DNA from: a virus
IMG/VR virus record: IMGVR_UViG_3300036826_000051
Coordinates: 1 to 48,746 of that record
Length of the DNA: 48,746 nt
Strand: one strand, 5' to 3'
Below, one piece after another: positions 7,054 to 18,774 of the stretch (position 1 is its first letter; the number at the start of each line of letters is the position of its first letter). A program made the translations under genes and the position numbers. The notes beneath the pieces are model-generated. The model ran no database searches, was not told the origin of the DNA, and saw nothing but the letters and a program-made list of their open reading frames with translations.

Positions 7054-7521
7054 TCACTTCGCAGGGGCCAGTTCCAGCACCGAGGCGATCAGCCCCGGTG
7101 CGAACTGGCCCTCTGCGTACAGCTTCGACGCTTGCAGGCCGACGACCTGCTTGTCGTCTCGGAAGCAGATCCCGGTCATCGCGTCGAGGATCGCGCGGCA
7201 CAGCTTGTCCAGGTCGGGGTGGACGGCGGGAGCCTGTGGCGCTGAGGGTCTCAGCTTCTCGGCGTTGCGCCCGGTGCCGAAGTGCGACTGCGGGCGGGGA
7301 AGGAAGAACATCAGCCGCAGGTCAACCGGCTCGGTGAACGCCTCCTGGCCTACCATCGCTTCCTTGGCAGCCCCGGCCACGTCTTGACGCCAGGTGCGTA
7401 ACCGTGCATCGGCCATCTCGATCACGTTGCCTCGGATGACCTTCTTCGACCCCTGTGGAACCGGCAGCCCGTAGACCGTGAACTGCGTCCCACGCGCGTC
7501 GATCCCGACGGTCGCACTCAC
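7054..7521 (-). CDS. rusA: RusA-family Holliday junction resolvase
   Basis: Endonuclease that resolves four-way junctions during phage recombination and packaging. 155 residues: N-terminal FTVYGLPVPQGSKKV, central LMFFLPRPQSHFG, then the acidic catalytic region HPDLDKLCRAILDAMTG and FRDDKQVVGLQASK, matching the RusA family layout and length. GTG start at 7521 overlaps the preceding stop as GTGA. It is the last gene of a tightly coupled minus-strand run (9568 to 7054). Confidence 0.88.
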   Translation of the reverse strand: MSATVGIDARGTQFTVYGLPVPQGSKKVIRGNVIEMADARLRTWRQDVAGAAKEAMVGQEAFTEPVDLRLMFFLPRPQSHFGTGRNAEKLRPSAPQAPAVHPDLDKLCRAILDAMTGICFRDDKQVVGLQASKLYAEGQFAPGLIASVLELAPAK

Positions 7522-7960: not shown

Positions 7961-8304
7961 GGCATCTCCTCCCCGAACGGCTCCCGCATCGTCTGGAGCG
8001 CCTCCGCGACCTGCTGCCTTCCTTCCTCGGTGTCGATGTCGGCCCGGACAACGATGTCCACGACCCGGAGCAGCTTGCCGGGAGGCTCGGTCTCGGGAGA
8101 GATGACGGCGACGATGGGCTTGTCCAGCATGATCGCCAGCCCCAGTTCGACCGCGAACTTGATGTCCGCCTCCCCCTTCGGGACAAGCTGAAGCACGAAC
8201 GAGGACTGGTCGATCTTCTCCAGCGCGTCACGACGGACAGACTGGACGAACTCCTCCCAGACCTCGCGGTCGTCGTCGGAGAGTTCCGCCTCCCAGTCGC
8301 TCAC
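7957..8304 (-). CDS. Hypothetical protein with deoxyribosyltransferase-like core, 115 aa
   Basis: The segment ADIKFAVELGLAIMLDKPIV resembles the central strand-helix of nucleoside 2-deoxyribosyltransferase-like and related Rossmannoid proteins that are frequent in actinophages. The N-terminus is acidic and helical. GTG start overlaps the upstream stop. The short length lacks the full enzyme fold, so a non-enzymatic or partial domain is possible. Confidence 0.6.
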   Translation of the reverse strand: MSDWEAELSDDDREVWEEFVQSVRRDALEKIDQSSFVLQLVPKGEADIKFAVELGLAIMLDKPIVAVISPETEPPGKLLRVVDIVVRADIDTEEGRQQVAEALQTMREPFGEEMP

Positions 8305-8789
8305 AGCATCCCCAGTTCCTCGGCGGTGTTGAGCAGGATCTCGTGCAGGTCGTCGGAGATCCCGAACCGCTCCTTGTTGTGCTCCAGCCCCGCCGCGAAG
8401 GTCTTGACCTTGGCCGGGTCGTCGGTGCGCTGCTTGACCCGCTCGGAGGCAGCGCGCCAGTCGCAGAGCATCTCGATCAGCGCCATCAGGCTCATCCCCC
8501 TGACCCCCTCCTCGAAGTGCTCGGGGTGGTGGTCGTTGTGGGCGAAGTGGTGCTGGAGCGCGGGGCCGAGTTCGCGCAGCGAGGCCCGGTACTCGTCGGA
8601 GCCGTACTCCAGGTTCGCCAGCTTCGGGGTGGCGATGTCGAACGCCTCCAGTTCGGGAGGCTCCAGCTTGGAGCGGTCATGGTCTCGCCCCCGCCGAACG
8701 AGGTCGTCCACGGCCTCGTTGAGGAAGTCTCGCACCCGGTCGATGTGCTCCCGAGTCTCGGGCCGGGAGTCGTAGCGAGTCTCGGTCAC
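8301..8789 (-). CDS. DUF5662-like protein, 162 aa
   Basis: Resembles the DUF5662 family of phage and bacterial proteins: HIDRVRDFLNEAV, DRSKLEPPELEAF, then HHFAHNDHHPEH and MALIEMLCDWRAA. The His/Asp/Glu-rich pattern (HxxHNxHHPEH) looks like a metal-binding site of HD-like helical proteins. Biochemical role unknown. GTG at 8789 overlaps the previous stop (GTGA); residues encoded further upstream look non-coding. Confidence 0.75.
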   Translation of the reverse strand: MTETRYDSRPETREHIDRVRDFLNEAVDDLVRRGRDHDRSKLEPPELEAFDIATPKLANLEYGSDEYRASLRELGPALQHHFAHNDHHPEHFEEGVRGMSLMALIEMLCDWRAASERVKQRTDDPAKVKTFAAGLEHNKERFGISDDLHEILLNTAEELGML

Positions 8790-9031
8790 TCGCTGGCCAC
8801 CAGCGTCGAGGGGTCGTGGTTGTGGTCGCCCTCGGCGTCGGCCATGTCCCAGGCGTCGGCGTCCTCCCCGTTCGAGGCGCAGTACGGGCACTCCCCGTTC
8901 TTGCAGCAGGGCAAGACCTGGGGGACGGTGATCGGCCTGTCCGATGTGACCAGCACATGCCCGCAGGCGCAGCGCTCCGCGTAGCGAACCCCGAGTTCCC
9001 TGGCCAGATCCATGTCCTCTTGCTCGGTCAT
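8786..9031 (-). CDS. Small zinc-binding protein, 81 aa
   Basis: Cysteine pairs CACG at about 21-24 and CCKNGECPYC at 42-51 suggest a zinc ribbon. The acidic, His-containing tail follows (EDADAWDMADAEGDHNHD). ATG overlaps the upstream stop by 4 bp. One of many CxxC mini-proteins in this genome; partner unknown. Confidence 0.65.
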   Translation of the reverse strand: MTEQEDMDLARELGVRYAERCACGHVLVTSDRPITVPQVLPCCKNGECPYCASNGEDADAWDMADAEGDHNHDPSTLVASE

Positions 9032-9435
9032 TTCTTCCTCCCCTTCTTCTCGTCGTCCTTCAGGAAGGTCTGGACTTGCTCACGGTGCAGGTCGAGATTC
9101 CAGGCCGCATCCCACGGCCACACGATGACAGACCCCGCCCAGGGAACCATCCCGACCGCACCGGAAGGGCTGGTGACGTAGAAGCGGGTCTCCCCCCAGC
9201 GGGCGTGCTGAGGCTCGTCGGGCCACAGGTGACGGGGGAGGATCTGGAAGCCTCGGTATCTGCCTCCCGGCTCGAAGTCGCCCATGTCCTCGTCGGCGGG
9301 GTCGAGAAGCTGCGAGGCCATCATCAGCGGAGGCTCTGCGCGAGTGGTGGACGCAGCCTCAGCCCCGCCCGCATCCTCGGCGTCGAGAGGCTCTGGCGGG
9401 GTCTCCTCGATCAGGTCATCGAACTCGCTCGACAC
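9028..9435 (-). CDS. Hypothetical protein, 135 aa
   Basis: GTG at 9435 with AGGAG four bases upstream; the frame extends further up but the extension overlaps another gene and looks non-coding. The N-terminal 50 residues are acidic and disordered. The C-terminal part has beta-like sequence (RFYVTSPSGAVGMVPWAG, SVIVWPWDAAWN) and a Lys-rich tail. No family recognised. Confidence 0.6.
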   Translation of the reverse strand: MSSEFDDLIEETPPEPLDAEDAGGAEAASTTRAEPPLMMASQLLDPADEDMGDFEPGGRYRGFQILPRHLWPDEPQHARWGETRFYVTSPSGAVGMVPWAGSVIVWPWDAAWNLDLHREQVQTFLKDDEKKGRKK

Positions 9436-9568
9436 GCTGCTCCTCTCGACGCTCCAGGGCGCGACGGACAAGACCCCTGACCCACTCCGAGGGATCCTTC
9501 CCCTCCTCGCGCAGAGACTTGGCCGCACCCGCAGGGACATAGACCGCGACCTTCAAGTGGTTGACCAT
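9416..9568 (-). CDS. Small basic protein, possible ribbon-helix-helix, 50 aa
   Basis: ATG at 9568, TGA at 9416-9418, overlapping the next gene by 20 bp. A short strand (HLKVAVYVP) followed by two helices (KSLREEGKDPSEWVRGLVRR) fits a ribbon-helix-helix DNA-binding protein and might be the local regulator. TAGACT at 9575-9580 lies 6 bp before the ATG and could be a -10 for a leaderless message. First gene of the minus run to RusA. Confidence 0.5.
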   Translation of the reverse strand: MVNHLKVAVYVPAGAAKSLREEGKDPSEWVRGLVRRALERREEQRVERVR

Positions 9569-9801
9569 GCACCCAGTCTACTAGTACACGGGGAATGCGG
9601 CGGGGAGAGGCAGACGCCGCACCCCCTCCACCACGTTATCCACAGGTGGGGACAAAGGCTCCGGGAGGCTCAAAACCGCAACGCTACGCCGCTGCGCGCG
9701 CGGGAAGCGCGGCTGGGTGGGAAGCCACAGTCCCAGTGGGAGGCTCAACCGCACGCCCGCCCGCGCGGGGGATGCCCCTCCCAGCCGAAGGCTGGGCCTG
9801 G
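9569..9801. other. Intergenic region with DnaA-box-like site and inverted repeats
   Basis: 233 bp without a supported gene, between two minus-strand genes. It holds TTATCCACA (9636-9644), a match to the bacterial DnaA box consensus, on the plus strand, and the first hairpin of the dense hairpin zone (9780-9796). Only one DnaA box is visible, so an origin role is speculative. Confidence 0.4.
9636..9644 (+). promoter_or_regulatory. DnaA-box-like sequence
   Basis: TTATCCACA matches the DnaA box consensus TTATNCACA. Single copy in a 233-bp gap. A chance 9-mer is possible. Confidence 0.35.
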
Positions 9802-10440
9802 CTAGTCCTGGGGATGGCTCAATGGCTCTACTGAGCCATTTGAGCCATGGTCGAGGCTGATCCCCTGAGCATCAGCGAAGCTGATGAGTTGAGAGAGCGT
9901 GGCTGTGGAGGGGTCGAATGACCCCTCGATGGTGAGGGTGCTCTGATCCTTCGGATCAGTGGTCTCGATGATCTCCAAGGCCAGCTTCGCTGCGACCTCG
10001 GGGCGGACTTCGGGGTCGAGTGCAGCGCTCACCGCGCGACCGGCCAGCCGCACAGCGTTCTGGCTTGCCAGAACCTTCAGTGCTGACCTGGGACTACCAG
10101 GTCGAGTGATTCCAAGTGCAAGGCGTAGTTCAGCCTTGGCCCGCCGCGATTCGGCAGAGGCCGCATGGCCCTTGGCCATGAACTTCCTCGGATCGCTCGC
10201 CACCCCCAGCCCAGAATGGGCTGAGCAGTAGTCGGTGGCCCGAGTCTTGGCAGCCCTACAGGGCTGGCCTTTGCTGGTGACGGCCCAGCAGCCTCCCGGC
10301 CCTGGCGTCGTCCCCCGTGTGCCGTGAAACGGCGGCGCTGGGACGGCGAGAAGGGCCGAGTCGGTCTCCCCCAGCACGTCCTCTGTCTCAGCTTCGCTGA
10401 GACCGCGCGCCGCGCTCTCCGTGTGGGTACCCACCTGCAC
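9802..10440 (-). CDS. Zinc-finger protein, possible terminase small subunit, 212 aa
   Basis: Residues about 50-76 show CWAVTSKGQPCRAAKTRATD followed by YCSAH, a C-x8-C-x10-C-x2-H zinc motif seen at the start of several actinophage small terminases and related proteins. Then an Ala/Arg-rich helical stretch (RRAKAELRLALG), and a segment around ALDPEVRPEVAAKLALEIIE that resembles the helical tail of small terminases. It lies far from terL, so the call is tentative. Its gene is full of hairpins, including a 15-bp near-perfect one at its 3' end. GTG start at 10440; divergent from the plus block. Confidence 0.5.
   Translation of the reverse strand: MQVGTHTESAARGLSEAETEDVLGETDSALLAVPAPPFHGTRGTTPGPGGCWAVTSKGQPCRAAKTRATDYCSAHSGLGVASDPRKFMAKGHAASAESRRAKAELRLALGITRPGSPRSALKVLASQNAVRLAGRAVSAALDPEVRPEVAAKLALEIIETTDPKDQSTLTIEGSFDPSTATLSQLISFADAQGISLDHGSNGSVEPLSHPQD
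9814..9848. repeat. Long inverted repeat in gene 3' end
   Basis: ATGGCTCAATGGCTC (9814-9828) faces GAGCCATTTGAGCCAT (9833-9848) with one extra T and a TACT loop. It lies inside the last codons of the minus-strand zinc-finger gene. Confidence 0.8.
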
Positions 10441-10860
10441 ACTCTACCGCCTTCGGCGGACGGATCCCAGCCCTAAAGGGCTGCCGAATCCTTACGAAAT
10501 CCATACCCTTACAGGGTAAGCAGCAGGGCAGCTTGACGGCTGACAGCAGGGCGGTTACTTTGTAATGGCCTCGGCGGTCGGCGGCAGTCGGCAGCGGTTC
10601 CGAGGTACCCGGAGGGTAAGGGCCAGCAGCGAACTCAAGCTGGCGTAGCCAGTCCGGTCGTGGATCCCGCTCTGCGAGTGAGGGCCGAAGGCCCGAAGGA
10701 ATGAGCCGGTCTCCAGCCGAGGTAAGCGGCCTCGGACTGTCCGTAGGACAGCGTAATAGCCCATCGAACGGCGCTTACAGCGCCACCTAAGCACATGAGA
10801 CCTCTTTTCCAGCCCCCTACGGGGGGCTGGGATGGATGCCTCGACCGAAAGGAGCCTCAC
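10441..10860. other. Divergent intergenic region / long 5' leader with hairpins
   Basis: 420 bp without a supported gene between divergent transcription units. It contains the promoter at 10533-10561 and at least seven short hairpins, e.g. CCGCC-TTC-GGCGG (10447-10459) and CCAGCCCCC-TACG-GGGGGCTGG (10809-10830). If the promoter is real, the first plus-strand gene has a leader of about 290 nt folded into serial hairpins. Confidence 0.6.
10533..10561 (+). promoter_or_regulatory. Sigma-70-type promoter for the plus-strand block
   Basis: TTGACG (10533-10538), a 17-bp spacer, then TACTTT (10556-10561). It is the best -35/-10 pair seen in the intergenic regions and faces the long plus-strand gene block. 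Start point expected near 10568. Confidence 0.55.
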
Positions 10861-11070
10861 ATGAAGGCACGCAAGCCCGACCACGCGGAGGTCTACAAGC
10901 ACCGCAAAGCGGTGCGGCCGATCTTCAGCGGCAGGTCGAACCCGATCCACGGCATCTCCGATGCCGTGCTGCTGAGCAACACCGTCTCAGCGAAGGCCGC
11001 TCGGCAAGCCGAGCGGGAGTGGAAGCGAACGCTGTCCAGAGGACAGCGCAGAAAGTTGAGGTCGGCATGA
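10861..11070 (+). CDS. Basic small protein, 69 aa
   Basis: ATG at 10861 with AAAGGAG upstream; an in-frame ATG at 10795 lacks a Shine-Dalgarno. Lys/Arg-rich and helical (KPDHAEVYKHRKAVRPIFSG ... REWKRTLSRGQRRKLRSA), so nucleic-acid binding is plausible. Ends in ATGA overlap with the next gene. First gene after the main plus-strand promoter. Its sequence contains five or more perfect hairpins. No family recognised. Confidence 0.7.
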   Translation: MKARKPDHAEVYKHRKAVRPIFSGRSNPIHGISDAVLLSNTVSAKAARQAEREWKRTLSRGQRRKLRSA

Positions 11071-11285
11071 TCTTCGATCAGCAGGACTACCTGGACATGG
11101 CTCTTGCGAGCCATCGGATCGGCTCCCTGGCCTTCAGCCAGGGCAAGCTGAACAACGTGGCAATCAGGATTGCCACCCTGGACGACCCGTACTACTCCCG
11201 GCTGTCCGGGAGGACGTACATGGCAGCGGCGCGGCTGGCTTCGCCATCCCGCATCGCTGAGTTGGTCGCCATCCACGGCGACTGA
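11067..11285 (+). CDS. Hypothetical protein, 72 aa
   Basis: ATG at 11067 overlaps the preceding TGA. Likely all-helical (QQDYLDMALASHRIGSLAFS, TYMAAARLASPSRIAELVAI). Several hairpins lie in the coding sequence, e.g. GGCAATC-AG-GATTGCC. Function unknown. Confidence 0.65.
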   Translation: MIFDQQDYLDMALASHRIGSLAFSQGKLNNVAIRIATLDDPYYSRLSGRTYMAAARLASPSRIAELVAIHGD

Positions 11286-11328
11286 CGGCTTGCATCGAGC
11301 GGCCCTTCGGGGCCGCTGCTTGGAAGTC

Positions 11329-11343
11329 CCCGACAGAGAGGAG
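11329..11343 (+). promoter_or_regulatory. Start-associated sequence copy 1
   Basis: CCCGACAGAGAGGAG, 4 bp before the ATG at 11348. A GCGGCCC/GGGGCCGC hairpin (about 11299-11316) lies upstream. The GAGAGGAG part serves as ribosome-binding site. Confidence 0.9.
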
Positions 11344-11347
11344 CACC

Positions 11348-11506
11348 ATGATCCTGTCCGTAGGACAGGCCGTTCGCTACCGAGGTAGCGAGTACCGGAT
11401 CCGGGCCATCTGTGATGGCCTGGTCGTCATCGGCCGAGAGGCCGATCCCGTGGAGGTCACGCTGACTCCCCTGGCAGCCTTCAGGCTGCTGGACACCGGA
11501 CTCTGA
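11348..11506 (+). CDS. Small protein, 52 aa
   Basis: ATG directly after the start-associated element; TGA at 11504-11506. The sequence ILSVGQAVRYRGSEYRIRAI, then DGLVVIGREADPVEVTLTPL, reads like a small SH3/Tudor-like beta barrel. Four perfect hairpins sit in its 159 bp. Too short for a family call. Confidence 0.65.
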   Translation: MILSVGQAVRYRGSEYRIRAICDGLVVIGREADPVEVTLTPLAAFRLLDTGL

Positions 11507-11507
11507 T

Positions 11508-11522
11508 CCCGACAGAGAGGAG
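11508..11522 (+). promoter_or_regulatory. Start-associated sequence copy 2
   Basis: CCCGACAGAGAGGAG, 5 bp before the ATG at 11528 and 1 bp after the previous stop. Confidence 0.9.
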
Positions 11523-11527
11523 GGTGC

Positions 11528-11629
11528 ATGTCCATTCTGGACATGATCGCTGCCAGCAAGCAGCGGCGTTACGGCTCCATCGGAGCCGTAGGCCATGCGC
11601 TGCTGAAGGCAGCGAGCAAGGCTGCGTAG
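11528..11629 (+). CDS. Micropeptide, 33 aa
   Basis: ATG after a start-associated element; TAG at 11627-11629. Likely a short amphipathic basic helix pair (SILDMIAASKQRRYG ... GHALLKAASKAA). Having its own element supports real translation despite the length. Function unknown. Confidence 0.55.
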   Translation: MSILDMIAASKQRRYGSIGAVGHALLKAASKAA

Positions 11630-11703
11630 CCCTGCACGGGCCGTCCCCGAAGGGACGGCCTGATGGAGTGCTGTGCATTCCCACCGCTGCAAGGCAGCGG
11701 TGT

Positions 11704-11718
11704 CCCGACAGAGAGGAA
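11704..11718 (+). promoter_or_regulatory. Start-associated sequence copy 3
   Basis: CCCGACAGAGAGGAA, preceded directly by the perfect hairpin CACCGCTGC-AAG-GCAGCGGTG (11682-11702). Start codon at 11723. Confidence 0.9.
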
Positions 11719-11722
11719 TCTC

Positions 11723-13051
11723 ATGCCTGATTCACTCGGCACGGTTGCTGAGGCAACCGTCGATCCAGGGGACGTTTGCGATCACTGTGGCAGCGTTGTC
11801 GGTAACGACAACCTGTACCACAACGACGAGCGTGGCTCAGTCTGTTCAGACTGCGACTTCCACACTTGCGATTGGTGCGGTGCGGAGCACCGCGACAGTG
11901 ACGATGCGTACTCCTGCTGCCGCCATGAGTGCCCGGACTGTGGATCCGTCCACAGGTACGAGGAGGATGCCGCAGCTTGCTGCGCTCCGCAGTACGAGTG
12001 TCCCGTCTGTGGTGCTATGCACCACGACGAGGACGATGCGGTCTACTGCTGCCGTTCCGTAGGAACGTCGTATCCCCGGCTCGCTGATCTCCCTCGGCCC
12101 TACCAGGTCTCCGTACCGGAGATCGAGGGTCGGCCCGGAAGGGTCTGCTCTATCGAGCAGGAGATCAACGACGGCGGGAGCGAGGCCACGCAGATGCTCT
12201 ACGACTTCGGCTTTGCCGATGCCAGAGAGCAGGCCAGCTACTCCTCCCAGGGTAGACCCGGAAGGGTCTCGGTCAAGTCCGATGCCTCCCTTTCGGGAGA
12301 GGACAGCGCCGAGATCGTCTACAGCCGTTTTCGGCTGTGGGAGCCTGCCTCGACTGCCGACCTGTCGGCAGCGTTCGGCAGGATGCGGCAGTTGGCCCGA
12401 GAAGCGAACGTAGTTCGGGTCAACAAGTCGGCCGGTACTCACATCCACATCTCGGCTACCGCCGAGAACGGACTGAGGCTCGGCCCCGTCCAGATGGCAG
12501 CGCTGCACGAGATCTTCGCCTACTGCGAAGATTTCCTGTACTCGCTCGCCGCTGCGGGCTGGGACGCTCACCGGGCTACGCCCGGTGGCGGCGGCTACTG
12601 CAAGCCGATCCCGAAGCTGTCCGAAGGACAGAAGGCCACTGGCTTCAGGGTGCAAGCCCTGATGCGGGGAGACCGATACTTCGGTCTCAACTTCCAGCGG
12701 CTCCTCGACGCTGCGGGGAACTGCTCCTGCGGAGCAGCCCGCTTCGGAGAGTGGCAGGAGTGCGAGTGCGGCTCATTCGACAGCGCTACCGTCGAATGGC
12801 GGCTGTTCAACGCCTCCACGAAGCCCGAGACGCTGCACGCATGGCTGATCCTCAGCCATGCGCTGACGGCGATGGCCTTCAGCCACACGGTCGGCAGCCT
12901 CCCGGCGAACGGCTACGGCACTCAGGACACTGAGGGCCGTAAGGCAGTCCAGACCTGGATCGAGCAGAACGCTCCGCTGACGGATGACGAAGTTCAAGTC
13001 ATCCGCTCGGCAGCGGCGAAGGCACCGGGTCTCGGCAAGCCGAGACGGTAG
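11723..13051 (+). CDS. Amidoligase with N-terminal zinc-ribbon repeats
   Basis: 442 residues. Residues 49-66, 70-87 and 93-110 are three tandem zinc-ribbon-like units of the form CxxCG..H....DA..CC, after another Cys-rich unit at 19-44. The rest matches the amidoligase_2 (glutamine-synthetase-like COOH-NH2 ligase) family: E145/E147 in CSIEQEIN, KSDASLSGEDSAEIVYS, GTHIHIS, and the basic/aromatic segment TVEWRLFNASTKPETLHAW. The family is known or predicted to form amide or peptide bonds using ATP. It is followed by a class II glutamine amidotransferase, the usual partner, which would supply ammonia. Substrate unknown. Synonymous sites are shaped into many hairpins. Confidence 0.85.
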   Translation: MPDSLGTVAEATVDPGDVCDHCGSVVGNDNLYHNDERGSVCSDCDFHTCDWCGAEHRDSDDAYSCCRHECPDCGSVHRYEEDAAACCAPQYECPVCGAMHHDEDDAVYCCRSVGTSYPRLADLPRPYQVSVPEIEGRPGRVCSIEQEINDGGSEATQMLYDFGFADAREQASYSSQGRPGRVSVKSDASLSGEDSAEIVYSRFRLWEPASTADLSAAFGRMRQLAREANVVRVNKSAGTHIHISATAENGLRLGPVQMAALHEIFAYCEDFLYSLAAAGWDAHRATPGGGGYCKPIPKLSEGQKATGFRVQALMRGDRYFGLNFQRLLDAAGNCSCGAARFGEWQECECGSFDSATVEWRLFNASTKPETLHAWLILSHALTAMAFSHTVGSLPANGYGTQDTEGRKAVQTWIEQNAPLTDDEVQVIRSAAAKAPGLGKPRR

Positions 13052-13098
13052 CTGCGGTGTCCAGCCCTGACGGGCTGGCACCCGGAGCCACCGGCTCC

Positions 13099-13121
13099 CC
13101 GATCCATGTTCCATGGATCGG
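13099..13121. repeat. Hairpin before the amidotransferase element
   Basis: CCGATCCATG-TTC-CATGGATCGG, perfect 10-bp arms, ending one base before start-associated copy 4. Confidence 0.85.
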
Positions 13122-13136
13122 CCCGACAGAGAGGAG
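13122..13136 (+). promoter_or_regulatory. Start-associated sequence copy 4
   Basis: CCCGACAGAGAGGAG, 6 bp before the ATG at 13143. Confidence 0.9.
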
Positions 13137-13142
13137 TACCAC

Positions 13143-14225
13143 ATGTGCGGAATCGCTGGCATCTACCTGCGAGACCCGGAGTTCCGGGTCGATGCGCTGG
13201 ACTCGATGCTGGACACGATGCTGGATGAGATCCAGCATCGCGGCGGCGATGCGACCGGCTTCGTTGCCTTGGGCAACGAGGGCGTTCTGGAGTGGCACCG
13301 TGCGGCCTGCGATGTCTCCGACTTCGTGAAGTATCGGCGGCCCGTCCCGAAGGGGACGAGGACGATCCTGGCCCACACTCGGTATGCAACGCAGGGTCTC
13401 CCTGCGTTCATCGAGAACAACCACCCGATCAAGCGTGGCCCGTTCTACGTCATCCACAACGGCCACGTCTCCAACGATCAGCAGCTTTTCAAGCTGGCTG
13501 ATCGCAAGCCCTTCGGCCAGGTCGATTCCGAAGCGATCCCGGCCCGTCTAGCTTCCCTCGGGAAGCTGACGGACGCCGAGGTCGTGATGGAGGAGATCGA
13601 GGGGGCAGCGGCGATAGCCGCTGTGGACGAGTCCAACCCCCGCGAACTCGTGCTCGCCAAGGGTCACTCCAGCCCCTTGTTCGTCCTGGTGACGAACAAG
13701 ATCGTGGTCTGGGGATCGACCCGAGACACGGTGGAAGTGGCCTACAAGAAGCATGTAGGCCGTCTGCCGAAGAAGCGGAAGATCGAGTCCCTGGAATCAG
13801 GGACGATGCTCCACTTCAGCGCCGAGGGCAAGCAGACTCGAACGAAGTTCGAGTGCTACGTCCCGGCGTACAAGACCTACACGCCTTCGGCGTGGAAGGA
13901 GACGACCGGCTTCACCTACTCGACGGAGGGCGCTGCTTGCAGCGTCCCCTCCGTGCCTCCGACCCGGCACCTGCCGACCATCGGCGGCTATCCCGAATGG
14001 GATAGCGAGGAGGAGGAGGGCACGTCGGCCAAGGCCGACGACGCTCTCCGCTGCGACATCTGCGACAGGGAGACCTCCCTGTCGGTCGCCTCCTACGAGA
14101 TGGACGAGGACGGATCCACTTGGATCCTCTGTCCTCGGTGCATGGAGGACATCTCCGAGGACTACACGGAGGAGTTCGAGCGGGTGAACGCGGCGATCCT
14201 CGCTGACAGCGAGGACGACCAGTGA
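13143..14225 (+). CDS. Class II glutamine amidotransferase
   Basis: 360 residues, Ntn-hydrolase fold. MCGIAGIY gives the catalytic Cys2 after Met removal; also HRGGDATGF, HTRYAT (substrate Arg), NNHPI and HNGHVSND, as in the GlmS/PurF glutaminase domain. It releases ammonia from glutamine. No sugar-isomerase or phosphoribosyltransferase domain follows. Instead there is an acidic linker and a C-terminal zinc ribbon (CDIC ... CPRC, about 300-340). It should pass ammonia or an amino donor to the amidoligase encoded just upstream. The next small membrane gene overlaps its stop. Confidence 0.9.
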   Translation: MCGIAGIYLRDPEFRVDALDSMLDTMLDEIQHRGGDATGFVALGNEGVLEWHRAACDVSDFVKYRRPVPKGTRTILAHTRYATQGLPAFIENNHPIKRGPFYVIHNGHVSNDQQLFKLADRKPFGQVDSEAIPARLASLGKLTDAEVVMEEIEGAAAIAAVDESNPRELVLAKGHSSPLFVLVTNKIVVWGSTRDTVEVAYKKHVGRLPKKRKIESLESGTMLHFSAEGKQTRTKFECYVPAYKTYTPSAWKETTGFTYSTEGAACSVPSVPPTRHLPTIGGYPEWDSEEEEGTSAKADDALRCDICDRETSLSVASYEMDEDGSTWILCPRCMEDISEDYTEEFERVNAAILADSEDDQ

Positions 14226-14353
14226 CCTGCTGGGGAATCGTCGCTCTCTGCCTCACCCTGTCCCCGCTGGCCGTAGCGATCATCGGATCGCTACGCCAGT
14301 GGCTCAGGGGAGGCCCGCGAGCCTGGGCAGGAAGCCGAGGCTGGCGCAGGTAG
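14222..14353 (+). CDS. Small membrane protein, 43 aa
   Basis: GTG at 14222 overlaps the amidotransferase stop (GTGA); TAG at 14351-14353. One hydrophobic span (CWGIVALCLTLSPLAVAIIG) then an Arg/Trp/Gly-rich tail. A 10-bp-arm hairpin (14272-14295) encodes the end of the span. Coupling to the amidotransferase hints that the amidoligase product may act at the membrane, but this is inference. Confidence 0.6.
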   Translation: MTCWGIVALCLTLSPLAVAIIGSLRQWLRGGPRAWAGSRGWRR

Positions 14354-14363
14354 ACCCTGCACA

Positions 14364-14385
14364 GAGCACCCCGAGAGGGGTGCTC
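14364..14385. repeat. Hairpin before start-associated copy 5
   Basis: GAGCACCCC-GAGA-GGGGTGCTC, perfect 9-bp arms, 11 bp before the element. Confidence 0.85.
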
Positions 14386-14396
14386 GATGGAGGGCC

Positions 14397-14411
14397 ACCG
14401 ACAGAGAGGAG
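14397..14411 (+). promoter_or_regulatory. Start-associated sequence copy 5
   Basis: ACCGACAGAGAGGAG, 5 bp before the ATG at 14417. Confidence 0.9.
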
Positions 14412-14416
14412 CAAGC

Positions 14417-14632
14417 ATGGCTCACTACCCCGACCACTACTCAGTCTCCATCGGAGACGGAGTGGTCGATCCCGAGGGCTTCGTCGGCATCGTCACCCGA
14501 GTTCAGGGTGACGGACAGGCCGTGTTCGTGAAGCTGGCCACGGGCGGCGCGTTCAAGTACCCGTACCACGTCCTCGACAAGATCGAGGACGACGGCTACC
14601 CCGGTCTCGACCGGATAGCCGACGAAGGCTGA
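14417..14632 (+). CDS. Small protein, 71 aa, SH3-like
   Basis: Sequence HYSVSIGDGVVDPEGFVGIV, then TRVQGDGQAVFVKLATGGAF and KYPYHVLDKIED reads as a small beta barrel (SH3-like). ATG follows a start-associated element. No Cys. Function unknown; it is downstream of the amidoligase module in the same direction. Confidence 0.65.
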   Translation: MAHYPDHYSVSIGDGVVDPEGFVGIVTRVQGDGQAVFVKLATGGAFKYPYHVLDKIEDDGYPGLDRIADEG

Positions 14633-14633
14633 A

Positions 14634-14673
14634 CAGGGTCACATCCCTTCGGTCTGTGAAGGGTGTGACCCTG
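14634..14673. repeat. Extended hairpin element A
   Basis: CAGGGTCACATCCCTTC, loop GGTCTGT, then GAAGGGTGTGACCCTG; one bulged base. Lies 3 bp before start-associated copy 6. Related in loop and inner stem to the elements at 15515 and 17762. Confidence 0.85.
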
Positions 14674-14676
14674 AAT

Positions 14677-14691
14677 CCCGACAGAGAGGAG
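14677..14691 (+). promoter_or_regulatory. Start-associated sequence copy 6
   Basis: CCCGACAGAGAGGAG, 4 bp before the ATG at 14696. Confidence 0.9.
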
Positions 14692-14695
14692 CATC

Positions 14696-14917
14696 ATGGA
14701 CGACTACTACGACCACGAGGAGTGGTCGGAGCGGGTCGAGATGTTCGCTGATCCCGGAGGGCGCTCTGCTCTCCGAGCAGCGTCGAGGAGCAATCCTCGG
14801 AACCTGCCCTGCCCGACCTGTGGTGAGGCGAACCGCCTCACCCCTGCGGACAGGGCGCGCGGCTACCAGTGTGACCGCTGCGCGGACATGGACGAGGGGC
14901 TGATCTTCCCGTGCTAG
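14696..14917 (+). CDS. Zinc-ribbon protein, 73 aa
   Basis: Acidic N-terminus (DDYYDHEEWSERVEMF), then a single zinc ribbon CPTCGEANRLTPADRARGYQ ending CDRC. Likely a small nucleic-acid or protein-binding adaptor. Its stop overlaps the GTG of the next gene. Confidence 0.7.
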   Translation: MDDYYDHEEWSERVEMFADPGGRSALRAASRSNPRNLPCPTCGEANRLTPADRARGYQCDRCADMDEGLIFPC

Positions 14918-15141
14918 GGAAGATCGACGCCTCGCCGCTTCGCACCGCTGACGGGGCCATCATCGTTGATGGCCCCCAGCGGAAGCTGGACGAGGCCAGG
15001 AAGGTCTACCGCCAGCGGTACGACCGGGGCTACGTCCTGTCGATGACAGGACGCGACACCGAGGCCCAGCGGATCCTGGACTCCGCGAACGCGGCTCTGC
15101 TGAAGGCAGAGCAGGAATACGCGACCGCCCGAGGTCGCTGA
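14911..15141 (+). CDS. Helical small protein, 76 aa
   Basis: GTG start within the end of the zinc-ribbon gene. The C-terminal 50 residues (PQRKLDEARKVYRQRYDRGY ... ILDSANAALLKAEQEYATAR) form long charged helices, probably a helical hairpin or dimer. Ends at the ATG of the next gene (1-bp overlap). Function unknown. Confidence 0.65.
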   Translation: MLGKIDASPLRTADGAIIVDGPQRKLDEARKVYRQRYDRGYVLSMTGRDTEAQRILDSANAALLKAEQEYATARGR

Positions 15142-15515
15142 TGCAGGTCTGGGGAGTCAGCGAAGCTGACATCCGCTCTGCCGTCTCCGAAGCGGGGCTA
15201 GTCGTCTGGAACGACTACGGCTATCCCCGCTGGAGCGGCATCGGCAAGAAGGGACGGTCTCTGACCGTCCGCCTCGGGGTGGATCAGACCAAGCCCCGCG
15301 ACTCGGAAGGGCTGCTGCCCTTCCAGAAGCGAGGCTGGAGAGGACGCCGACTCCCGTATGTGACCTGGGAAGGTCACAGGGAGTTCATGCGGATTCTGTT
15401 CCGCGACCACCCCGAGGCACGAGTGAAGTCGGCCTTGGCCGACTACAAGGGCCGAAAGGCGTTCTGGGCCGAGCACCCTTCTACGAAGGGTCTCTGGTCA
15501 GGGCCAGGCTACTAG
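15141..15515 (+). CDS. Hypothetical basic protein, 124 aa
   Basis: Starts with a helical segment (SEADIRSAVSEAGLVVWNDY) and is Trp/Arg/Gly-rich later (KRGWRGRRLPYVTWEGHREF). ATG at 15141 overlaps the previous TGA. Hairpins such as GTGACCT-GGGA-AGGTCAC occur in the coding sequence. No family recognised. Confidence 0.65.
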   Translation: MQVWGVSEADIRSAVSEAGLVVWNDYGYPRWSGIGKKGRSLTVRLGVDQTKPRDSEGLLPFQKRGWRGRRLPYVTWEGHREFMRILFRDHPEARVKSALADYKGRKAFWAEHPSTKGLWSGPGY

Positions 15516-15564
15516 GGGACGGATTTCACCCTCTCGTTCTGTGAGAGGGATGAAATCCATCCCC
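15515..15564. repeat. Extended hairpin element B
   Basis: Left arm 15515-15535, loop GTTCTGT (15536-15542), right arm 15543-15564. Twenty of about 22 positions pair. Starts at the last base of the upstream stop codon, 3 bp before start-associated copy 7. Confidence 0.85.
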
Positions 15565-15567
15565 GCA

Positions 15568-15582
15568 ACCGACAGAGAGGAG
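15568..15582 (+). promoter_or_regulatory. Start-associated sequence copy 7
   Basis: ACCGACAGAGAGGAG, 5 bp before the ATG at 15588. Confidence 0.9.
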
Positions 15583-15587
15583 TCACG

Positions 15588-15779
15588 ATGCCCACACCGA
15601 TCCTCGCCGTCTTGACGGCGGACAAGATCACTCCCGGCACCGTCCGCTTCACCGAAGCGGACGCACCGGAGGGGCAGCGCCCGCTCTCGATCTACCTCCC
15701 GAACGAGGTAGTCGAGTCGGTCGTCGGGCCGGGTGCCGAGATCGGCACCACGGTCAAGCTGACCGTCGAGCGTGCGTAG
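15588..15779 (+). CDS. Small protein, 63 aa
   Basis: Beta-rich sequence TPILAVLTADKITPGTVRFT, then LSIYLPNEVVESVVGPGAEI and TTVKLTVERA. It could be a single-strand-binding-like or OB-type mini domain, but no diagnostic motif is present. Last gene inside the hairpin-dense zone. Confidence 0.65.
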   Translation: MPTPILAVLTADKITPGTVRFTEADAPEGQRPLSIYLPNEVVESVVGPGAEIGTTVKLTVERA

Positions 15780-15785
15780 CAGCTA

Positions 15786-15803
15786 GGGCCGCTCACGCGG
15801 CCC
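15786..15803. repeat. Last hairpin of the dense zone
   Basis: GGGCCGC-TCAC-GCGGCCC between genes, 27 bp before start-associated copy 8. Confidence 0.8.
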
Positions 15804-15830
15804 CTGCTGGTGCAGCACTCGCTCACCACC

Positions 15831-15845
15831 ACCGACAGAGAGGAG
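15831..15845 (+). promoter_or_regulatory. Start-associated sequence copy 8
   Basis: ACCGACAGAGAGGAG, 7 bp before the ATG at 15853. Confidence 0.9.
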
Positions 15846-15852
15846 TCAGGCT

Positions 15853-16275
15853 ATGCCTGGCAAGTACAAGGCAACCGTGGGGATCACCCTCTCCACGACC
15901 GTCGAACCGGACGGCTACCTCACCGGGGTCGAGGACGAAGTTCTCGACTACGACTTCAGCGGCTCCTGGGGATACGGCGAGGACGTCCGCGTCGATGGCG
16001 CGGAGGTCTACTTCGTGATCGAGGCCGACTCGGAGGACGAGGCCCGAGGCCGCGTCCAGGAGATCATGGATGGTGCCTCCTGGGGAGGCGACTCGCTGGA
16101 GTGGGAGATCGAGGACTGGGAGATCGAGTCCGTCGAGGAGACCGTCCCACCGATGGACGCGGAGCGTGCCAAGGCGCTGATCTCGGCGTTCCTGGACTAC
16201 GAAGTCCAGAGCGGACGGATCGACGCCGAGACCCGCGAAGCGTTCGAGTTCGTGCTCGAACTGCTCACCCCGTAG
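15853..16275 (+). CDS. Acidic hypothetical protein, 140 aa
   Basis: The first half has a beta-alpha pattern with DSEDEARGRVQEIMDG, typical of small sensor-like or immunity-type alpha/beta folds with a periodic 'SEDEA' helix. It is then strongly acidic (LEWEIEDWEIESVEET), with a helical C-terminus. Lacks the dense hairpins of the genes before it. Acidic small phage proteins sometimes mimic DNA; this is speculation. Confidence 0.7.
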   Translation: MPGKYKATVGITLSTTVEPDGYLTGVEDEVLDYDFSGSWGYGEDVRVDGAEVYFVIEADSEDEARGRVQEIMDGASWGGDSLEWEIEDWEIESVEETVPPMDAERAKALISAFLDYEVQSGRIDAETREAFEFVLELLTP

Positions 16276-16286
16276 GGCAGCGTGGC

Positions 16287-16306
16287 GAGGGGGCTTCGGC
16301 CCCCTC
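16287..16306 (+). terminator. Terminator-like hairpin
   Basis: GAGGGGGC-TTCG-GCCCCCTC 11 bp after the stop of the acidic protein. Very stable UUCG-loop stem, but no U-tract follows, as often in high-GC genomes. Confidence 0.55.
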
Positions 16307-16311
16307 CGCTG

Positions 16312-16378
16312 CGTGAGCAGCAGGGATCGGGAGAGGCTGCGCGCCAGGGAGAGGCCGCGCGCTTTCCTGCTGCTCACG
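16312..16378. promoter_or_regulatory. Operator-like repeat cluster
   Basis: Inverted repeat CGTGAGCAGCAGG (16312-16324) and CCTGCTGCTCACG (16366-16378) enclosing two direct repeats with an 18-bp period, GGGAGAGGCTGCGCGC (16329-16344) and GGGAGAGGCCGCGCGC (16347-16362). It lies just upstream of the promoter for a DNA-binding protein, so it may be that protein's operator. Confidence 0.5.
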
Positions 16379-16412
16379 GAGCGTCACCACGCTCGCTCAC
16401 CAGCCGCACACC

Positions 16413-16421
16413 TGCTATACT
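16413..16421 (+). promoter_or_regulatory. Extended -10 promoter
   Basis: TGCTATACT has the TGN extension and a good -10 (TATACT, 16416-16421). No clear -35. Start point near 16428, about 24 nt before the TTG start of the HTH gene. Confidence 0.5.
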
Positions 16422-16451
16422 GGTGAGCACACACGGCAGAAAGGAGGTGAG

Positions 16452-16688
16452 TTGACCACCACCACCACCACCACCACCACCACCACCACCGATGCGAAGT
16501 TCGCAAAGGAGGTCAACGAGCGGCTGATCGACACGCACGAGTTGATGACCCTGCTCGGGCTGCGGAACAGGCAGACCGTCTGGGATCGCGTCCGCAGGGG
16601 CGAACTCCCCGAGCCGATCTTCGTTCGTGACAAGGCGATCTCGCTCTGGGATCGCAAGGCACTACCCGACAGAGAGGAGAGCAAGTGA
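16452..16688 (+). CDS. AlpA/MerR-like HTH protein with poly-Thr start
   Basis: 78 residues. TTG start preceded by AAAGGAGGTGA, a near-perfect Shine-Dalgarno. Residues 2-13 are twelve threonines from (ACC)12. Residues about 25-70 match a HTH_17/AlpA or excisionase-like winged helix (LIDTHELMTLLGLRNRQTVW, then DRVRRGELPEPIFVRDKAIS, LWDR). Ends in PDREESK, because the next start-associated element lies in its coding end. Probable transcription regulator or DNA-architectural protein. Confidence 0.75.
   Translation: MTTTTTTTTTTTTDAKFAKEVNERLIDTHELMTLLGLRNRQTVWDRVRRGELPEPIFVRDKAISLWDRKALPDREESK
16455..16490 (+). repeat. (ACC)12 microsatellite
   Basis: Twelve perfect ACC units directly after the start codon of the HTH gene, coding for polythreonine. 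In-frame slippage could vary the length. Confidence 0.95.
16665..16679 (+). promoter_or_regulatory. Start-associated sequence copy 9
   Basis: CCCGACAGAGAGGAG inside the 3' end of the HTH gene (coding PDREE), 5 bp before the GTG at 16685. Confidence 0.9.
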
Positions 16689-17755
16689 GGCACGACAGCC
16701 TCGACACGCTCATCGAGCGTGTACTGAAGCAGCACGACTCGAAGGAGGACATCCTCGCGGACACGCGGCGGATGTCCGTCGTCGTGGAAGCGGAGGAGGA
16801 GGGCCATCCGGTCACTCTCTCCGTGGACGACGAGGGTGGCGACACCCTCCACTTCGCCCCGTCCGATCACATGCTCGGGCAGATGGCGACCGACCTCGGC
16901 ATCCCGAAGCGCTACTGGGACAGGATGAGGGCCACCGCCCCCGACCTGTTCCAGAAGAACGCGCATCACTGGATGTACGAGGAGCCGAAGCGCAGGATGC
17001 TTCGGGCCTACAAGGTGGACGACGTGGTGCGGAACGGACGGGCCTGGCTCAGCGACCGCTACCGGCGTCTCGACAACATCGAGATCGCCAAGCGGCTGCT
17101 CCCGGAGTTCGACCGGCTCGACACCGAGGTCGCGTTCCACAACGCCTCGATCACGGACGAGCGCTTCTACCTCCGCGCCGTGTTCCCCCGGATGGAGAAG
17201 GAAGTCCGGGTCGGAGACACGGTTCAGTGGGGAGTCCAAATCCGCAACTCGGAAGTGGGAGCCGCCACGTTCGCCATCGAGTCCTTCGTCCTGCGCCTGG
17301 TCTGCATGAACGGCATGGTCGTGGCCAAGGTGCTGAACGCTCGGCACCTGGGCAAGCGCCTGGACGACATCCTCTCGGATGAAGCGGTCAAGGCCGACGA
17401 CCACGCCTTCTGGCTGGCCGCTCGGGACACGCTCCGAGCCAGCCTCGATGAGGCCGAGTTCGAGCGCACGGTCGAGACGCTGCGTGAGACCACGAGCGGG
17501 CTGAAGGTGCAGAACGCACCGCAGGCCACGAAGCGCCTCGCCAAGACGCTCTCCCTCTCCGACGAGGAGCAGGAGAGCGTGCTCACGAACCTGGTGCGTG
17601 AGGGCGACCTCTCGCGCTGGGGGATGCTGAACGCCGTCACCGCCACCGCCACCACGGTCACGAACTTCGACCGTGGCGTCGAGTTGGAGGAGGCGGGCTG
17701 GAGCATCGCCAACCTGTCCCGAAGGGACTGGGAACGGATCGCGGTCGCCGCTTAG
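16685..17755 (+). CDS. DUF932 phage/plasmid-like protein
   Basis: 356 residues of the DUF932 family (also known as phage/plasmid-like protein): SDHMLGQMATDLGIPKRYWD, RAYKVDDVVRNGRAWLSDRY, FYLRAVFP, then VQIRNSEVGAATFAIESFVL and RLVCMNGMVV, followed by a helical C-terminal third. Family members occur near plasmid and phage replication or recombination genes; exact biochemistry is not established. GTG start overlaps the HTH stop (GTGA), so it is co-translated with the regulator. Confidence 0.88.
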   Translation: MRHDSLDTLIERVLKQHDSKEDILADTRRMSVVVEAEEEGHPVTLSVDDEGGDTLHFAPSDHMLGQMATDLGIPKRYWDRMRATAPDLFQKNAHHWMYEEPKRRMLRAYKVDDVVRNGRAWLSDRYRRLDNIEIAKRLLPEFDRLDTEVAFHNASITDERFYLRAVFPRMEKEVRVGDTVQWGVQIRNSEVGAATFAIESFVLRLVCMNGMVVAKVLNARHLGKRLDDILSDEAVKADDHAFWLAARDTLRASLDEAEFERTVETLRETTSGLKVQNAPQATKRLAKTLSLSDEEQESVLTNLVREGDLSRWGMLNAVTATATTVTNFDRGVELEEAGWSIANLSRRDWERIAVAA

Positions 17756-17761
17756 ACCGTG

Positions 17762-17800
17762 CGTGGGTGAACCCTTCGGGTTGTGAAGGGTTCACCCACG
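17762..17800. repeat. Extended hairpin element C
   Basis: CGTGGGTGAACCCTTC, loop GGGTTGT, then GAAGGGTTCACCCACG: a perfect 16-bp stem, 3 bp before start-associated copy 10. Could double as a terminator for the DUF932 message. Confidence 0.9.
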
Positions 17801-17803
17801 AAC

Positions 17804-17818
17804 CCCGACAGAGAGGAG
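17804..17818 (+). promoter_or_regulatory. Start-associated sequence copy 10
   Basis: CCCGACAGAGAGGAG, 4 bp before the ATG at 17823. Confidence 0.9.
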
Positions 17819-17822
17819 CACG

Positions 17823-18047
17823 ATGTACGCAGTAGTCGTCAACGAGGGGCCACTGTCCGCCGAGGACAACGCCACCTACTTCTCGAAGGAGAAGCCGGGA
17901 TTCGTGCTGGTCGAGTACCAGACCAGCGATGAGGAGTCCGTCAAGTTCGGGCGCTTCATCACCTTCGTCCCGACGAACGGCCGCTCGAAGGGGAAGCTGA
18001 TGAGCGTCCCCGCAGAGCGGGTCGTCTCGATCTCAGAGGACGCATGA
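17823..18047 (+). CDS. Small protein, 74 aa
   Basis: Mostly beta sequence: MYAVVVNEGPLSAEDNATYF, EKPGFVLVEYQTSDEESVKF and GKLMSVPAERVVSI. Resembles small single-domain beta-barrel proteins of phages but no family named. Stop overlaps the next ATG (ATGA). Confidence 0.65.
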   Translation: MYAVVVNEGPLSAEDNATYFSKEKPGFVLVEYQTSDEESVKFGRFITFVPTNGRSKGKLMSVPAERVVSISEDA

Positions 18048-18349
18048 GCACCGTGTTCGACTACGTGGTGGAGATGCAGCGATGCGTGGACGAGATCCGC
18101 GCCTTCGCTGCTACCACCACCGCCGACATGCCAGAGGATCTGGCCTACGCGGTCATCCTGGCCGTGCCCTTCGCACGCTGGGGGAGGATCGGGCTGGGCG
18201 ACGACAGGCTCGACCTGAAGATGCGGCTCGACCTGATCGCAGCCCACGAGTACGCAGGTGCTCACGGCTACGACTGGGAGTACGTGGACGACTGGGCCGA
18301 GAAGATCGCCTTCGACGCCCTGGAGGAGATCCATTCCTCCCGGCCCTAG
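18044..18349 (+). CDS. Helical protein, 101 aa
   Basis: All-helical pattern (VFDYVVEMQRCVDEIRAFAA, DLAYAVILAVPFARWG, RLDLIAAHEYAGAHGYDWE). ATG at 18044 overlaps the previous stop. Function unknown; it is followed by a hairpin and a start-associated element without its own gene. Confidence 0.65.
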   Translation: MSTVFDYVVEMQRCVDEIRAFAATTTADMPEDLAYAVILAVPFARWGRIGLGDDRLDLKMRLDLIAAHEYAGAHGYDWEYVDDWAEKIAFDALEEIHSSRP

Positions 18350-18358
18350 ATGTGCAGC

Positions 18359-18378
18359 GGGCCGGGTTTCCCCGGCCC
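18359..18378. repeat. Hairpin before orphan element
   Basis: GGGCCGGG-TTTC-CCCGGCCC, perfect 8-bp arms, just after the stop at 18349 and 6 bp before start-associated copy 11. Possible terminator. Confidence 0.75.
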
Positions 18379-18384
18379 ATCTGC

Positions 18385-18399
18385 CCCGACAGAGAGGCA
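18385..18399 (+). promoter_or_regulatory. Start-associated sequence copy 11 (orphan)
   Basis: CCCGACAGAGAGGCA without any start codon at the usual spacing. A second hairpin (CGCGCAGC-AA-GCTGCGCG, 18402-18419) and a normal element (18445) follow. Looks like the remains of a deleted gene cassette. Confidence 0.8.
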
Positions 18400-18444
18400 G
18401 TCGCGCAGCAAGCTGCGCGCCACTTCTCTGTACGCACCACCATA

Positions 18445-18458: not shown

Positions 18459-18463
18459 CGCAC

Positions 18464-18772: not shown

Positions 18773-18774
18773 GC

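Follow-up and report, generated by a model that had tools for sequence, protein, structure and literature searches.

Dense perfect hairpins in the early region of a phage family known from metagenomes point to a role of folded DNA

Results

The early region and its hairpins

We analyzed the virus record IMGVR_UViG_3300036826_000051 over its whole length of 48,746 bases (the window, W; G+C content, 66%), together with relatives from viral contigs (G1, G2 and so on). The minus strand of the window carries terminase, portal, head and tail genes, and the plus strand carries an early block. This block includes members of the amidoligase, glutamine amidotransferase (GATase), DUF932 and PD-(D/E)XK exonuclease families, and weak matches to HNH and O-like replication initiator proteins; no DNA polymerase, primase or helicase was recognised among the open reading frames (ORFs) scanned, which were part of those in the window. 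The subject of this work is a zone in which small perfect hairpins run through these early genes and the DNA between them (Table 1).

Counting as a hairpin two perfect arms of at least 6 bp separated by a loop of 2–7 nt (except where arms of at least 7 bp are stated), we found 116 hairpins at positions 9780–15803. All except two (114) are non-overlapping; these cover 2,108 of the 6,024 bases (35%), their centres lie on average 53 nt apart, and 92 fall wholly within a called gene. Density is 15–25 hairpins per kb at 10–16 kb, compared with 0–9 in the rest of the window. The zone starts near the minus-strand gene at 9802–10440, spans the divergent junction and thins past 16 kb. Its first part (9780–10860), comprising the minus-strand gene and the junction, has 18 hairpins, a density similar to that of the plus-strand genes, and 6 of them lie in the junction (10440–10860), where shuffles gave 0.66. 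The minus-strand gene faces the leftward late genes, and hairpins pass through its length; a search of 16 other genomes found homologues in 12, so we regard the gene as real. An earlier sequence-only reading of this DNA had described dense perfect hairpins in coding and intergenic DNA, on both strands and also in a minus-strand gene, all of which these counts bear out. That reading had also placed the neighbours at 15853–17755 at one or two hairpins per kb. This was an underestimate: the gene at 15853–16275 has 11.8 per kb (5 seen, 1.7 expected) and that at 16685–17755 has 3.7 (4 seen, 2.2 expected), so the right edge is gradual and not sharp.

First-order Markov shuffles of the window gave about 11.5 hairpins with arms of 6 bp or more, close to the 5–10 estimated in the sequence-only reading. 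For arms of at least 7 bp the expectation was 3.5 and 87 were seen; the corresponding values for G1, G2 and G3 were 85, 71 and 71 hairpins, against 3.3, 2.8 and 3.4. When the codons of 12 genes of the window were shuffled with the proteins preserved, 12.0 hairpins were expected and 71 were seen, in agreement with the proposal that codon choice completes the hairpins; the amidoligase ORF (11663–13051) has 23 against 3.9, and the GATase ORF (13113–14225) has 20 against 3.8. The called plus-strand genes of nine genomes that carry the zone hold 52–76 hairpins, against means of 9.8–17.7 in 60 codon-preserving shuffles per genome, and no shuffle maximum exceeded 23. Pooled, these nine genomes have 619 perfect hairpins with arms of at least 7 bp, against 22.7 expected. 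These shuffles, and G10, described below, rule out that the hairpins result from protein constraint or from composition. An assembly artefact is unlikely, because the eight zone-bearing relatives stem from seven metagenome numbers.

Table 1. Features of the hairpin zone and its surroundings (positions in the window)
Feature	Position	Strand	Remarks
RusA-like gene	7054–7521		
Hairpin zone	9780–16500		Core 9780–15803, thins to about 19 kb; one perfect DNA hairpin per ~53 nt
Zinc-finger-like gene, conserved	9802–10440	minus	Invariant C51, C61, C72, H75; left edge of the zone
Divergent junction, leftward late and rightward early genes	10441–10860		Hairpin-rich
Start-associated sequence CCGACAGAGAGGAG, first of 15	11330–11343	plus	Up to 2 mismatches
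Further CCGACAGAGAGGAG sites	11509, 11705, 13123, 14398, 14678, 15569, 15832, 16666	plus	
Further CCGACAGAGAGGAG sites	17805, 18386, 18446, 18757, 22786, 25298	plus	
Amidoligase gene	11723–13051	plus	ORF from 11663; ATG at 11723 suggested by the start-associated motif at 11705
Example hairpin	12108–12122	plus	TCTCCG-TAC-CGGAGA; in G1 TCTCGG-TTC-CCGAGA; in G2 TCGCTG-TTC-CAGCGA
GATase gene	13143–14225	plus	Start 13143 set by the motif at 13123; Met-Cys-Gly-Ile-Ala-Gly
Example hairpin	13606–13623	plus	CAGCGGC-GATA-GCCGCTG; in G1 same arms, loop TATC; in G2 two pairs changed with compensation
Five small early genes	14417–14632, 14696–14917, 14911–15141, 15141–15515, 15588–15779	plus	18–26 hairpins per kb each
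78-aa gene	16452–16688	plus	Weak HTH_17 match, E 0.089
DUF932 gene	16685–17755	plus	PF06067; predicted N-terminal OB-like domain

Occurrence of the zone among relatives

Five scans of viral contigs yielded 27 relative records, of which 16, chosen by length (34–49 kb), were compared; the comparison left out ten records of smaller length and the distant DUF932 record G004. A dense zone lies at the same place in 9 of the 17 genomes (W and 8 of the 16 relatives), and their best 3 kb hold 35–48 hairpins with arms of at least 7 bp, against 3–10 in the other eight. This density is not a general phage feature, given that nine stretches from eight named phages peak at 1–10 such hairpins per 3 kb; rarity outside the family is judged here from the individual loci compared. 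T7 (L206) is depleted, with 2 hairpins of this kind against 10.1 expected. In a contig of another GATase-bearing phage, nine small hairpins sit close together (L045:6366–6755).

The seven evaluable relatives that lack the zone show a weak excess at most. Here G9, whose contig does not include the early region, was excluded from the co-occurrence counts; G16 was covered to 40,000 of its 41,238 bases, the zone position was estimated in G10 and G21, and G19, which could not be placed, has at most 3 hairpins with arms of at least 7 bp in any 3 kb. The matching stretch of G10, G15, G16, G18, G20 and G21 contains 10–16 such hairpins against 2.0–5.3 expected, and the five distant relatives among them (all except G10) also span 10–16, against 2.9–5.3. 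From this excess in six zone-negative genomes, a milder hairpin enrichment may predate the zone-bearing clade. In a tree built from head, portal and terminase proteins, G10 and G9 fall inside that clade, as sister to G5–G7 (support 0.998), and the group of G5–G7, G9 and G10 joins the W group at a support of 0.777. This nesting suggests that the dense zone was probably lost in the G10/G9 lineage, or gained more than once.

The zone follows the place and not the genes. No amidoligase or GATase homologue was detected in the zone-bearing G5, G6, G7 and G11, which rules out the zone as a property of these two genes. Conversely, G10 retains both genes without a clear excess: its amidoligase gene has 1 hairpin against 0.89, and its GATase gene 6 against 3.0, with a shuffle maximum of 7 (200 shuffles). 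No homologue of the DUF932 or the zinc-finger-like gene was detected in G10. DUF932 was present in all nine zone genomes and in one of the seven evaluable others (G21, which has a weak excess), and the 78-aa gene at 16452–16688 in eight of the nine zone genomes and in none of the eight others, a number that includes G9, which does not have this region.

Arms, loops and spacing

Enrichment depends sharply on the size of the hairpin. Arms of 4 bp are not enriched, those of 5 bp are enriched 1.1- to 1.6-fold and those of 6 bp or more strongly; with respect to the loop, enrichment is strong at 2–5 nt, peaks at 3 nt and is weak at 6–7 nt. Arms are mostly 6–11 bp long (10 or 11 bp in 8 of 114 window hairpins), and the stems are almost strictly Watson–Crick. 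Among the 867 hairpins with loops of 2–5 nt, 448 have a loop of 3 nt, 603 one of 2–3 nt, and 569 are closed by a C–G pair with the C on the 5′ side. Loops of 3 nt or more (n = 712) have T..C ends in 188 cases and G..A ends in 156, the two being reverse complements, and GNA or TNC accounts for 309 of 519 triloops. The ratio of GNA to TNC is 113:128 in the plus-strand genes, 19:30 in the minus-strand gene and 4:15 in the junction (136:173 in total), which indicates that either strand can carry each type.

Apart from this, stems and loops are diverse in sequence, and no strong sequence motif was found at the hairpin flanks. The hairpins do not form a dispersed repeat family, since the copies are not alike: the zone has 19 families of direct repeats, among which the two largest represent the start-associated motif, one (D3) consists of four similar hairpins, and 16 comprise two or three copies each. 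No Rfam match reached the gathering score at 8000–20000, and intrinsic terminators and sigma-70 promoters (1 and 0 found) were not above shuffles. The spacing departs from chance: in the nine zones, 374 of the 798 gaps of up to 300 nt measure 15–40 nt (240 expected) and 56 are shorter than 10 nt (152 expected). Helical phasing at 10, 10.5 or 11 nt was not found in W, G1 and G2 (mean vector at most 0.13, noise about 0.1); the mean vector of G3 was 0.18 at 10.5 nt, and overall there is no clear phasing.

Retention, replacement and gain of hairpins

Comparisons between zones were restricted to BLAST-aligned parts, and because one site can enter the counts of several genome pairs, these counts are not independent. 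Hairpins with the same centre number 4–13 per gene and genome pair, against 0.3–0.7 by chance. When the 43 hairpins of the two large genes were compared between W and G1, 17 were intact, 6 had one pair broken, 13 had two or more and 7 were gapped; 12 of those 13 have 4–7 broken pairs. Hairpins tend toward being retained or replaced entire. Within retained hairpins (12 directed comparisons), 177 pairs had changed on both sides and still paired; a single change had broken a further 117, and two changes 17. Transversions, which have no G–U route, make up 53 of 96 compensated changes, 26 of them being flips between G–C and C–G; transitions represent 45% of compensated changes and 35% of linker substitutions. 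In the hairpin at 12108–12122, all pairs are maintained by double changes in G1 and G2; G3 has not maintained it. The check proposed in the sequence-only reading, whether compensatory changes keep the arms paired in relatives, thus came out in its favour for many hairpins, although many others were replaced whole.

In the closest trio (G5–G7), 45 of 293 four-fold sites in arms had changed, 2.4 times fewer than the 109.9 predicted from base-matched linker rates (Fisher p 4.6e-12, a value that is optimistic because sites recur between the three genome pairs). Gains confined to one member of a trio of genomes numbered 68, and 16 of these were clean (three or more derived changes and at most three ambiguous sites). 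Only 1 of these 16 had all its changes in one arm, where 2.1 would be expected randomly.

These data bear on a mutational drive, in which template switching or fold-back repair keeps creating and correcting short inverted repeats that have no function. Such a process would account for the turnover of whole hairpins between relatives, and correction within one replication could lower the rate of change in arms. The scarcity of imperfect hairpins and the 20 retained hairpin pairs with at least two compensated pair changes are also what template switching predicts, as far as the cited text goes (PMC8794818), and the same pattern parallels an argument made for Nematomorpha, in the sections of that source used here (PMC6649704). 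However, the one-arm signature of template switching is rare among the clean gains, and hairpins with one mismatch are not depleted (65 against 36.8 expected, nine zones). Loop inversion is weak as well: once the 107 of 752 aligned hairpins with indels had been excluded, inversions made up 7 of 85 changed loops, against 3.0, and four of the seven are one site. Neither the four-fold conservation of arms in the trio nor the non-random spacing is predicted by a neutral process. We therefore consider this explanation unlikely, although it survives better than the other alternatives. Taken together, the results would fit selection on point changes in both arms better than one-step template switching, although a correction process may be involved. 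The one-step perfection of quasi-palindromes, a form of the mutational role raised in the sequence-only reading, is disfavoured by the gains in both arms, the undepleted one-mismatch hairpins, the four-fold conservation and the spacing.

DNA or RNA as the folded form

In four genomes, which hold 314 perfect hairpins whose arms measure at least 7 bp, 8 one-mismatch hairpins have G–U in the stem (3.2 expected) and 3 have A–C (4.0 expected). The slight plus-strand excess of G–U is confined to the stem flanks and to these 8 of 36 one-mismatch hairpins. On the plus strand, loops with T..T ends outnumber those with A..A ends by 79 to 39 in plus-strand genes and by 10 to 0 in the minus-strand gene. 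This bias is not reversed in the minus-strand gene, which counts against a function in mRNA, since such a function predicts reversal.

An improbable alternative is that the early transcripts are densely folded as a defence against nucleases, antisense RNA or Rho. Hairpin coverage does fall around start codons: over 97 of them it is 0.22 at −20 to −11 and 0.19–0.23 at 0 to +19, compared with 0.33–0.40 at −60 to −21, and the start-associated motifs are left free of hairpins. Some four-base loops are strand-biased (GAAA 5 against TTTC 1, TATC 6 against GATA 1), and the share of transitions, which can use a G–U route, together with the flank G–U excess and a slight RNA stability, leans in the same direction. 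In contrast, G–U is scarce inside the stems, more than half of the compensated changes are transversions, loops of 2–3 nt predominate, and the minus-strand gene and the junction are similarly dense, with neither loop bias nor stability reversed in that gene. The folded-mRNA role suggested earlier is thus disfavoured by the few G–U pairs in stems, the near strand symmetry and the unreversed loop bias. The plus-strand leanings can be read as compatibility with translation, perhaps with one particular strand folding, and we infer from the sequence comparisons that the form under selection is DNA and not mRNA.

Sites that act in the duplex, such as cruciforms that absorb supercoils or bind a structure-specific protein (for instance, a RusA-like resolvase) during packaging or recombination, seem quite improbable. 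Pairing and loop types found on either strand would suit them, the window has a RusA-like gene, and the hairpins of phage N4 extrude at sub-physiological superhelical density with Mg2+, according to the consulted part of PMC4496689. Nevertheless, no RusA-like homologue was detected in the zone-bearing G5, G6 and G7, and the hairpin flanks carry no strong motif. Anti-guide camouflage, by which spacers or guides derived from the zone would fold on themselves and shield the first-entering DNA from CRISPR or Argonaute, would need hairpins that pair on both strands in DNA that probably enters early, yet it is very improbable, given that a whole hairpin is contained in only 23–28% of 34-nt windows in the nine zones.

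Discussion

A proposed array of selected DNA hairpins

We put the chance at roughly one half that selection maintains the zone as a DNA-hairpin array, which folds while the DNA is single-stranded or supercoiled. According to this proposal, small hairpins would be written through coding and non-coding DNA and maintained by selection, and would fold when the early zone is single-stranded or negatively supercoiled, possibly during genome entry, at the start of replication or in exonuclease-driven recombination. The zone would probably sit at a genome end or close to it. In G1 and G2 the contigs end close to the divergent junction, but the ends of other contigs show no clustering at this place. 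Among the four candidate roles listed in the sequence-only reading, the best reading is a structure of the DNA itself, whether or not a protein binds the hairpins, and the mRNA and mutational roles are those that lose ground.

The weakest step of the proposal is that the linkers may be coated by a single-stranded DNA (ssDNA)-binding protein, either host SSB or the phage DUF932 protein, and that the resulting regular scaffold of hairpins and protein would protect the zone or keep it accessible. Linkers of 15–40 nt are close to the footprint of ssDNA-binding proteins. The DUF932 assignment (PF06067) scored 29.7 bits against a gathering cutoff of 23, and the structure model has a mean pLDDT of 88.7. 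Its best alignments, within residues 8–227 and mostly 11–126, are with the OB folds of RPA, Teb1, Cdc13 and LEF-3 (Z 5.4–7.5); the eight best (Z 6.3–7.5) are RPA, Teb1/telomerase and Cdc13 chains and one chain of a repair complex. From this model, DUF932 is perhaps a candidate ssDNA-binding protein of the zone, and the linker size and the model together suggest the scaffold. We hold with some doubt the tentative proposal that coding DNA doubles as a DNA-hairpin scaffold, with DUF932 as the dedicated phage protein that binds its ssDNA and packages it.

Several observations weigh against the selected array or its scaffold. The rate of change over all sites between W and G1 is nearly equal in arms (0.201) and linkers (0.205), and in the deeper pair W/G2 the four-fold sites change no more slowly in arms than in linkers (0.474 against 0.433), a result that turnover of hairpins would produce. 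When all hairpins of the two large genes are considered, 2–25% of changed pairs still pair, against 15–38% in a control with the partner moved by 30 nt, which is not like for like because a one-sided change in a stem must break the pair; the low rate implies that much of the change is replacement. Most hairpins are absent from at least one relative, and no individual hairpin is therefore required. On the plus strand, G–U exceeds A–C at the stem flanks (179 against 134), and in plus-strand genes the predicted RNA stability is slightly higher on that strand (−0.18 kcal/mol, p 0.005; DNA, −0.03, p 0.006; both non-significant in the minus-strand gene), which makes a small mRNA component possible. 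The genome-end position rests on a map analogy with Pf-WMP3, LIT1 and LUZ7, records that start beside early genes. As for DUF932, Z values below 8 may reflect merely a common arrangement, a Foldseek search of the model against the PDB gave no match at E ≤ 0.001 (best 0.0074), few independent events underlie its association with the zone, and the DUF932 loci of other records (L006–L027) have at most 9 hairpins with arms of at least 7 bp per 3 kb.

Comparison with known systems

The nearest published case is that of the mitochondrial coding palindromes of Nematomorpha (PMC6649704). As far as the consulted part of that work describes them, both systems have perfect inverted repeats in genes, hardly any imperfect ones and turnover among relatives. 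The Nematomorpha palindromes reach 284 bp and are scattered, whereas the phage zone packs about 100 hairpins with arms mostly of 6–11 bp and, unlike them, has loops of 2–5 nt, non-random spacing, four-fold constraint and gains in two arms. The template-switch hairpins of RNA genes likewise have perfect stems and multi-base compensatory changes in the passages drawn on (PMC8794818), but the hairpins gained in the phage zone change in both arms.

The promoters of the N4 virion RNA polymerase are also short DNA hairpins in early genes, with 3-nt loops and a G..A loop pair; the portion of PMC4496689 considered here describes a sheared G:A pair in the loop and extrusion in supercoiled phage DNA, acting with host gyrase and SSB. 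N4 has three such promoters with conserved sequence, compared with about 100 hairpins with diverse stems in the zone. A conserved promoter sequence of the N4 type (GC-rich heptamer) was rejected for the zone, where stems and loops are diverse and flanks are free of motifs. A short stem, a 3-nt loop and a G..A pair occur together in a subset of the zone hairpins only, and a few of them could double as N4-type promoters. The first 15 kb of N4 (L199, 1–15000) has 25 hairpins with arms of at least 7 bp where 4.8 would be expected, never more than 10 in 3 kb and many within genes; this early region is possibly a milder relative of the same phenomenon.

Cluster K mycobacteriophages have a short motif at many starts, about half with upstream inverted repeats, in the text taken from PMC3203893, and a motif is likewise found here. 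Their repeats are one imperfect 17-bp family located at starts, while the zone hairpins share little sequence and span genes. An inverted-repeat survey of 2026, which took in 118,019 genomes, counted perfect repeats with arms of at least 10 bp, by the account in its cited portion (PMC13155455), and would miss most zone hairpins, as few have arms of 10 or 11 bp. We found no description of phage hairpin arrays in coding DNA in the open-access literature searched, in line with the statement of the sequence-only reading that no such feature had been described.

The zone points to a previously undescribed role of folded DNA in a phage family known from metagenomes. If true, selection on folded DNA rather than RNA within coding sequence at such a scale would be a surprise. 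The nine zone genomes provide a natural system for studying the role of small DNA hairpins in a phage whose genome is double-stranded DNA, and for examining how perfect palindromes, elsewhere mostly discussed as template switching, arise and persist. They may also give a clue to what DUF932, a family of mobile-element proteins, does. Should genome entry or early replication be under the control of the array, a further level of phage biology would be opened to testing.

Other features of the window

The product of the zinc-finger-like gene may presumably be given a putative small-terminase-like label; its structure model was poor (pTM 0.35) and was set aside. A late protein of 1744 aa (28293–33527, minus strand) has no sequence match in Pfam, NCBIfam or the PDB and a partial match only to PHROG 9880, and no virion RNA polymerase was recognised in the window. 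Regarding the host, the major head protein has no relative among bacterial and archaeal genomes. The amidoligase and amidotransferase genes (11663–14225 here) are also adjacent in Arthrobacter phages, and in UFV-P2 they flank an HNH gene; neither case has dense hairpins.

The start-associated sequence CCGACAGAGAGGAG, which lies ahead of early genes, is a feature separate from the hairpins. Allowing up to 2 mismatches, 16 matches were found on both strands against 1.5 expected, and at 14 of the 15 plus-strand sites (11330–25311) a start codon follows within 12 nt. Because such sites precede them, the starts of the GATase and amidoligase genes were corrected. Across the 13 sites at 11330–18770, there is one overlap with a hairpin, of one base. 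The sequence has 13 matches in G1, 13 in G3 and 8 in G8, and the upstream regions of G5 and G7 often carry ACACGGAGG in its place.

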